Origin: an uncultured Erysipelotrichaceae bacterium
Lineage (GTDB): Bacteria > Bacillota_I > Bacilli_A > Erysipelotrichales > Erysipelotrichaceae
NCBI GenBank assembly: GCA_947569705.1
Contig: CANOSP010000012.1
Coordinates: 1-53,209, forward strand
DNA: 53,209 bases
Reading direction: 5' to 3'
Part shown: positions 3-23,063 of the stretch, piece by piece
Layout of the letters: each line of letters begins with the position of its first letter
Numbering within the stretch: the stretch's first letter is position 1
Position numbers and translations under genes: made by a program
The notes under the pieces: model-generated
The model's database searches: none
What the model saw: the letters and a program-made list of their open reading frames with translations, nothing else
What the model was told of the DNA's origin: nothing

Positions 3-140
3 GGTTATTATTACCCGGGAAAAAATGTCGGCGGAGCTTTAACAGGTGATGAAACGAATTTAATGTTTTTAGGTGTATTAAATTTCATATCATTAGGTTT
101 ATTTATAATGCTTTATAAAAAGAAACTAACAGAAAAATAA
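3..140 (+). CDS. C-terminal end of a surface protein with LPXTG-like sorting signal (5' truncated)
   Basis: The reading frame enters from outside the window and gives 45 residues. It contains the motif GGALTGDETNL, then a hydrophobic segment of about 19 residues (MFLGVLNFISLGLFIML), then the basic tail YKKKLTEK and a stop. Motif, membrane span and positive tail in that order are the layout of a Gram-positive cell-wall sorting signal; ALTGD would be a variant of LPXTG. A sortase would cleave near the TG and attach the protein to peptidoglycan. The passenger domain lies outside the window, so its function is unknown. The same GALTGDxTNL string recurs in the 43-aa protein at 22905-23036, which suggests a genome-specific signal. 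Confidence is good for a sorting signal and low for the exact sortase class. Confidence 0.7.
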   Translation, partial: GYYYPGKNVGGALTGDETNLMFLGVLNFISLGLFIMLYKKKLTEK

Positions 141-21815: not shown

Positions 21816-21986
21816 ATATTGTTTCTTTTAAGATAAAGTTGTAAAATGAAGCTATAAGAAACTGTAAGCATATTTATATCATTTGAATCATATAATTTAG
21901 CGAACCATTTATCGTGTGTGTATTTAAGCAGCTCAGCGAAACAATCTTTGATTATAATTGAAACAAAGGAAGAAAGAAGGATTTAT

Positions 21987-22838
21987 ATGGCAATTTATGA
22001 ACTGTTATATGATATTAAGGATCAACGGGAAGCAGACGGTATCTGTAGCTTTAACGGTTATTTAGAGGATTATTTAACCACAATAGAAAATCAATCCGAG
22101 GATCAGAGAACTGAATTTTTTCAATCATTATTAAAAAAAGATGAAGATCTTCGTATCTGTGTGGATTTAAAACTAAATATTAATCGCAGCGCTGTTGCCA
22201 ATCAGATCATTCGCTATAAAGATGCCTTTAAGCTTCCGAAAGGAACTATCTGTTGTCCTTATATTATTTACGGAACTTTCCGTAATGAGCAGAAAGCGAT
22301 GATTTTAACATGGGGAGAGCGAGCATCTTACATTATCGCCAAGGCTTTATATTTTGTAATCAGTGAACCTGATAATGAATATGAAGGATCACGCAATGAA
22401 ATGATAGCCTGTTATGCACAAGCGAATCAAATAAAGATTGCCGAAACAGCTATGGATCGCTTTTTTTGGAATAATGAAAAGGCGGGGATTGTTCAGCGCA
22501 GTTTAGATGCACAGATTTATTCAAATTATCAGGAAATGTATGAAACGGCATTACAGTTGGCAAATGATCAAATTGAGCATAAAGAGAATCTGCTGGCGGA
22601 AAGTGAAGACAGTGAGGAAGCTGTCAATCAAATGATTGCCACATGGTTTTTGTTAAAGAAGTTTGTATATGTACAATATATGATGGATAAAAAGCACTTA
22701 AGAGAGCATGAAGATGATGTGCGCAAGCAGCGGCGATATGCGAAAGAAAAATGCGATTCTATCGGCTTTATCTCTTACAGTGAATTGTGGAAATCGGCAC
22801 AGAATTTCAAACAAAACCGGAAAAATGATAGGATATAA
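21987..22838 (+). CDS. Hypothetical protein, 283 aa, no recognised family
   Basis: I do not recognise this protein. It has no signal peptide and no membrane segment, is rich in charged residues, and looks mainly helical, especially the long stretch from about residue 190 to 280 with heptad-like Glu/Lys/Leu spacing. The only distinctive segment is KLPKGTICCPYIIYGTFRNEQKAMILTWGERASYII in the middle, which could be a beta-rich core. The ATG at 21987 follows AGAAGGA with good spacing; an in-frame ATG 23 codons upstream lacks one. Transcribed alone: a terminator precedes it at 21776 and its stop codon lies inside its own terminator at 22830. It is clearly coding, with ordinary codon use like its neighbours. 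Confidence 0.75.
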   Translation: MAIYELLYDIKDQREADGICSFNGYLEDYLTTIENQSEDQRTEFFQSLLKKDEDLRICVDLKLNINRSAVANQIIRYKDAFKLPKGTICCPYIIYGTFRNEQKAMILTWGERASYIIAKALYFVISEPDNEYEGSRNEMIACYAQANQIKIAETAMDRFFWNNEKAGIVQRSLDAQIYSNYQEMYETALQLANDQIEHKENLLAESEDSEEAVNQMIATWFLLKKFVYVQYMMDKKHLREHEDDVRKQRRYAKEKCDSIGFISYSELWKSAQNFKQNRKNDRI

Positions 22839-22858
22839 AAAAATATCCTTTTCTTTTA
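22830..22858 (+). terminator. Terminator overlapping the stop codon of the 283-aa gene
   Basis: A 7-bp stem (22830-22836 with 22843-22849) with an all-A loop, followed by TTTTCTTTT. The TAA stop (22836-22838) starts in the stem and ends in the loop. Confidence 0.75.
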
Positions 22859-22904
22859 CATAAAAAAAGATTATAATGATAACAGAAACAAAGGAGGGAT
22901 TCTT

Positions 22905-23036
22905 ATGCGTACCGGAGCTTTAACAGGCGATACGACTAATCTTACGTTGTATTTTGCATTAGCGATACTGGCATTTTTTATCCTGTTGATTATACTATTA
23001 TTGAAACGACGCAAGGACAAGGATGAGGACCAATAA
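22905..23036 (+). CDS. 43-aa stand-alone LPXTG-like sorting-signal microprotein
   Basis: A complete small gene with a -10 box TATAAT (22872-22877), the near-perfect ribosome site AAGGAGGG 6 nt before the ATG, 43 codons, and a terminator whose loop holds the stop. The protein is MRTGALTGDTTN followed by a hydrophobic helix of about 22 residues and a highly charged tail KRRKDKDEDQ. Motif, membrane helix and positive residues in this order form a cell-wall sorting signal, yet there is no signal peptide and no passenger domain. GALTGDxTNL is identical in layout to the end of the surface protein at 3-140. It may be a membrane microprotein, a sortase competitor or decoy, or an anchor relic. The coding call is strong; the function is unknown. 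Confidence 0.8.
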   Translation: MRTGALTGDTTNLTLYFALAILAFFILLIILLLKRRKDKDEDQ

Positions 23037-23052
23037 CGGTCTTTTTCTTTTT
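23026..23052 (+). terminator. Terminator with the microprotein stop codon in its loop
   Basis: A 6-bp stem (23026-23031 with 23038-23043) followed by TTTTCTTTTT. The TAA of the 43-aa gene (23034-23036) lies in the loop. Confidence 0.7.
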
Positions 23053-23063
23053 GATTAGATAAT

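Follow-up and report, generated by a model that had tools for sequence, protein, structure and literature searches.

A gene of 43 codons in an uncultured Erysipelotrichaceae bacterium encodes a sorting signal and no protein to be sorted. As read from the sequence, this gene is conserved, is under purifying selection and forms a unit of its own, while its product combines a motif matching that of the substrates in the same genome with a distinct helix and tail. We give about even chances to the reading that the microprotein is a dedicated, self-inserting, cargo-free ligand or substrate of sortase with a regulatory role. The broader proposal, that an encoded cargo-free ligand regulates or reports on the housekeeping class B sortase in at least two families of Erysipelotrichales, is put forward more tentatively.

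Genomes analyzed

The window, i.e. the whole stretch of DNA under study (53,209 nucleotides), is the entire contig C12 of genome G000. The genus comparison set comprised seven genomes from the genus of 'bacterium c-19' (Erysipelotrichaceae).

A sorting signal without a protein

The translation of the open reading frame between 22905 and 23036 nt is MRTGALTGDTTNLTLYFALAILAFFILLIILLLKRRKDKDEDQ, followed by a stop codon; MRT is succeeded by GALTGDTTNL, a single membrane helix, KRRK and an acidic tail. The features of the coding part are listed below with the evidence used for each.

22905-23036, forward strand: ORF of the 43-aa stand-alone sorting-signal microprotein (translation, profile scores, conservation, dN/dS)
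22914-22931, forward strand: sortase-like motif G-A-L-T/G-D, residues 4-9 (genus alignment; GAxTGD in large surface proteins)
22941-23003, forward strand: transmembrane helix, about residues 13-33 (Kyte-Doolittle comparison)
23004-23033, forward strand: predicted cytoplasmic tail, KRRK and acidic DKDEDQ (tail comparison)

The order of the elements is that of a sorting signal: the motif GALTGD, then hydrophobic residues 13-33, then the positive KRRK. Both LPXTG-anchor models accept the microprotein with a small margin, PF00746 (Pfam) at 20.5 bits over a curated cut-off of 20 and TIGR01167 (NCBIfam) at 16.9 bits over 15.9; TIGR01167 scored 22.8-24.4 on the microproteins of three species in the genus and of Thomasclavelia ramosa. 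A literal LPXTG is absent, its place being taken by GAxTGD, the usual motif of the genus. Neither a signal peptide nor an exported cargo domain is present, since the motif is preceded by two to four residues (MRT; MRRA in two species; MFT in one). The claim of the earlier note that this is a sorting signal without a protein is therefore confirmed in its layout and by both anchor models. The motif, helix and positive tail of the microprotein are ordered and spaced as in the known sorting signals (PF00746 Gram_pos_anchor, TIGR01167 LPXTG_anchor), from which it differs in having no cargo, no signal peptide, its own promoter region and terminator, a far more hydrophobic helix, an acidic tail and GAxTGD for LPXTG.

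Conservation in the genus

A separate short ORF of 43-54 aa was found in all seven genomes of the genus, and pairwise dN/dS was 0.02-0.21 for most unsaturated pairs and 0.33 for one distant pair. The invariant columns of the alignment include G4, A5, T7, G8 and D9, so that only x (L, F or Y) varies within the motif. The check on relatives was thus passed, the suggestion that the peptide is conserved stands, and conservation in 7/7 species makes the unit more than a chance occurrence. The upstream 306-aa gene adjoins the micro gene in six genomes, all those whose contig extends that far, and the NUDIX gene downstream was detected in 6/7. The 306-aa gene (21918-22838 of the window) is 55-69% identical across the genus, its product matched no Pfam or NCBIfam family, and its AlphaFold structure prediction is of low confidence (mean pLDDT 63).

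Transcription signals

The signals surrounding the coding sequence are as follows.

22830-22857, forward strand: hairpin AGGATAT-aaaaaa-ATATCCT and then TTTTCTTTT, probable intrinsic terminator for the 306-aa gene upstream (fold)
22846-22877, forward strand: promoter region TCCTTTTCTTTT-N14-TATAAT, with the -10 at 22872-22877 (one match per genome, alignment)
22891-22898, forward strand: ribosome-binding site AAGGAGGG, 6 bases before ATG (sequence; AGGAGG-type site in 7/7)
23025-23056, forward strand: intrinsic terminator overlapping the stop codon (hairpin fold; equivalent hairpin in 7/7 species)

The terminator at the stop codon is a 7-bp hairpin with a T-tract (-12.5 kcal/mol, z -4.0), as stable in 0 of 200 shuffled sequences. 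The hairpin at 22830-22857 is weaker (-7 kcal/mol, equal stability in 7 of 200 shuffles); its stem is changed on both sides in G001 and G003 (GGATG/CATCC) and is unclear in G004. Since the upstream gene has its own probable terminator there, the micro ORF is taken to be a unit of its own. TATAAT occupies the same place in 7/7 species with an invariant TCCTTTTCTTTT 13-14 bases upstream of it, and the pattern TCCTTTTCTTTT-N13/14-TATAAT has exactly one match in each of the seven genomes of the genus, just upstream of the micro ORF, the reversed control pattern having zero matches in the same genomes. A complete transcription unit had been proposed for this locus: its ribosome site and terminator hold, and the promoter does so in part, TATAAT and TCCTTTTCTTTT being conserved, with a consensus -35 absent from the alignment of the micro genes and the site not listed by a generic promoter scan. 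The TCCTTTTCTTTT block may act as promoter, terminator or both, because it is partly the T-tract of the upstream terminator; the block is kept in G004 despite the unclear stem.

These data bear on the origin of the gene. The microprotein resembles the C-terminal 40 residues of the large proteins of the same genome, as a remnant of a surface-protein gene would, but we regard such a remnant, or a chance ORF, as very improbable. The stop codon of the upstream gene lies 66 bases before the ATG, leaving no room for a coding remnant, and for this reason the micro gene cannot be the tail of a longer decayed gene. The ORF is conserved in 7/7 species under purifying selection with its own ribosome-binding site, a unique promoter-region element and terminators, and the helix and tail are unlike those of all surface proteins compared. 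The micro gene hence also passed the check for being the 3' fragment of a decayed gene.

The motif matches the surface proteins of the genome

The window itself holds one ordinary surface-protein end for comparison.

3-140, forward strand: C-terminus of a large GGALTGD surface protein of the ordinary kind, ...GGALTGDETNL-TM-KKKLTEK and stop (comparison only)

It is cut because the contig starts inside that gene; it does carry the motif of the microprotein, as had been observed. Thirty surface-protein ends were read in G000 and nearly all complete ones are GGA[NMLI]TGD; across the genus GA dominates the first two motif positions of the large surface proteins. The x of a sortase pentapeptide is a tolerant position in its recognition. 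The motif of the microprotein, GA-x-T-G-D invariant bar x, is what recognition of the pentapeptide by a sortase would predict, and the suggestions that the peptide competes for sortase or is regulatory are consistent with this evidence. The identity of x counts against a ligand, being hydrophobic or aromatic (L/F/Y) in the microproteins and mostly N, I, M or L in the large substrates of the genus.

The 2.1-Mb G000 genome has about 30 such ends (L112-L141), many of them within reading frames 1,500-2,050 codons long, and only two sortases; most of the ends are of the GGAxTGD type with YYPG or YNPxTS stretches before them. Contigs C1, C8, C12, C15, C19, C27, C29, C31, C47 and C52 of G000 start or end inside GGAxTGD surface-protein genes; the assembly was probably broken by these repeats, which makes short 'stand-alone' matches at those edges artefacts. 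In G000, G001 and G067, short open frames considered as stand-alone signals turned out to be the ends of large proteins cut at contig edges.

Helix and tail differ from ordinary sorting signals

Scored by their best 19-residue stretch, the helices have a mean Kyte-Doolittle value of 3.20 (3.06-3.32) in the genus versus 2.02 (1.49-2.53) for 35 ordinary signals, and of 2.85 (2.77-3.00) in Thomasclavelia versus 1.98 (1.44-2.42) for 19 ordinary signals, one of them from G053. The two ranges are fully separate in both genera; as the microproteins within a genus are orthologues, p-values overstate independence and it is the repetition of the pattern across genera that counts. Microprotein tails in the window's genus carry 4-8 acidic residues, ordinary sorting signals 0-2; the Thomasclavelia tail is not acidic. 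A helix of such hydrophobicity fits membrane insertion without a signal peptide, which supports the suggestion of a membrane microprotein.

Helix hydrophobicity and tail are the strongest distinctive features of the microprotein, and they would suit a small membrane protein with a job independent of sortase, either through a partner or in the membrane itself, its motif inherited from an ancestral sorting signal and TGD-x-TN possibly serving as a structural helix cap. We consider this unlikely, since x is the one pentapeptide position that varies, G, A, T and G being constant, and since the initial GA or its counterpart follows the host motif in two genera.

The same features bring to mind Streptococcus gordonii, in which the C-peptide left in the membrane by sortase A is sensed by the kinase SGO_1180 (Hall et al. 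2019, as described in PMC11326707 and PMC7763024; see also PMC11502775). Like the microprotein, these C-peptides are membrane-embedded sorting-signal helices that carry no protein; they are, however, by-products of adhesin cleavage, whereas the microprotein is separately encoded, carries an uncut motif and has no kinase linked to its locus. With this precedent, the microprotein could be a ready-made C-peptide mimic whose helix and tail are the intramembrane ligand of a sensor, for example a histidine kinase that follows the work of sortase, cleavage being optional or a trimming step. The conserved helix and acidic tail, so unlike the ordinary sorting signals of the window's genus, speak for it; but none of the genomes examined has a sensor gene linked to the locus, the Thomasclavelia tail lacks the acidity, and a mimic by itself leaves unexplained the invariant, substrate-matching GA on the outer side that is cleaved off. 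We rank it slightly below the sortase-independent membrane protein.

Stand-alone versions outside the genus

Thomasclavelia carries a stand-alone version in 8/9 genomes, including all six that are highly complete and little contaminated. These microproteins of 37-43 aa, T. ramosa included, resemble those of the window's genus in standing alone with no signal peptide, a motif near the N-terminus, a hydrophobic helix, a host-matching motif and purifying selection (ratio 0.07-0.34 for intact pairs), and differ from them in genomic locus, neighbours and the lack of an acidic tail. Since loci and neighbours differ, the two sets may have either a common or an independent origin. The motif is xVxTGD in 8/8, with V as in the large proteins there (mostly xVKTGD); the x before TGD is L, M, F or A in the microproteins and K or E in most large substrates, which was counted against a ligand. 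Extra, decayed copies in G233 and G237 (L088, L089) have TVD for TGD and have lost the ribosome site, that of G233 also the ATG; the G237 copy evolves without constraint (ratio 1.08 against its nearest relative). The motif is thus kept by the intact Thomasclavelia genes and lost by the decaying ones, and the loss of its G in the duplicates is a further argument against a job independent of sortase.

A 63-aa form was found in G053, from another genus, as SP-LSANTGDDTD-helix-KKKK with a signal peptide directly before SANTGD. That this genome arrives at almost the same product by way of a signal peptide speaks for a ligand; SANTGD is a poor match to the xVKTGD of its genome, which counts against one. 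No further intact stand-alone family was detected in protein searches phylum-wide (392 genomes) and family-wide (196 genomes), nor any plasmid or phage-family relative; the searches covered 1,278 genomes, counted with overlaps, by queries of the TGDxTN type, which would miss stand-alone signals of the LPXTG type. A DNA-pattern search that required a GGAG ribosome site before a stand-alone TGDxTN ORF was too strict: it gave one false match and missed the Thomasclavelia cases because the ribosome sites there are GGGGTG/AGGTGA.

Unannotated small proteins of 20, 31, 44 and 58 aa have been reported for Clostridium ramosum, now T. ramosa (PMC7903761); given these sizes, none is evidently the 38-aa microprotein of that species.

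Candidate sortase partner

G000 has two sortases: a class B enzyme, which scores 178.6 bits with TIGR03064 (cut-off 153.75), and a class D-like one. The other 15 genomes have at least one sortase each, with one match per genome of class B position and length; TIGR03064 was passed in the five of these 15 that were checked, giving six confirmed genomes with G000. G221, G230 and G053 (3 of 16 genomes) yielded no sortase other than the class B enzyme. Being found or fitting in all 16 and the sole sortase in three, the class B enzyme would be the best candidate partner of the microprotein; the class D-like sortase also present in the window's genus counts against this. No sortase gene neighbours the micro gene, which was counted against a ligand and agrees with a sortase-independent job. 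The class D-like sortase (L101:7946-8596, contig C2 of G000) has MYCC in the catalytic cysteine region where TLxTC is usual, and its gene overlaps that of a 192-aa membrane protein without a family.

Discussion

From the sequence comparisons we infer the topology, binding, cleavage and regulatory role of the microprotein as follows. With its very hydrophobic helix, short neutral N-tail and KRRK kept inside, it would insert itself as an N-out/C-in single-span protein, so placing GA-x-T/G-D just outside the membrane as in the GAxTGD surface proteins of the genus. The housekeeping class B sortase would bind the motif and probably cut between T and G, leaving the 7-residue stub MRTGALT (five or six residues in most Thomasclavelia) on the cell wall or lipid II. 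As only about seven residues would be attached to the wall, display is unlikely to be the purpose, and a regulatory ligand or substrate is favoured. What matters would then be that the sortase is occupied and/or that a defined remnant, GDTTNL with helix and acidic tail, stays in the membrane, the latter having its precedent in the C-peptide of S. gordonii; the most likely role would be the tuning or reporting of sortase traffic.

We found no prior description of stand-alone sorting signals or endogenous sortase regulators in the open-licence literature. Sorting signals are treated as passive tags; a conserved gene for the tag only, with a motif tuned to its genome, a helix of unusual hydrophobicity and a separate transcription unit, implies a function for the tag itself. 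T. ramosa, a culturable human gut species, carries a stand-alone version and allows testing. If the proposal is true, these bacteria would possess a natural cellular means of controlling sortase traffic.
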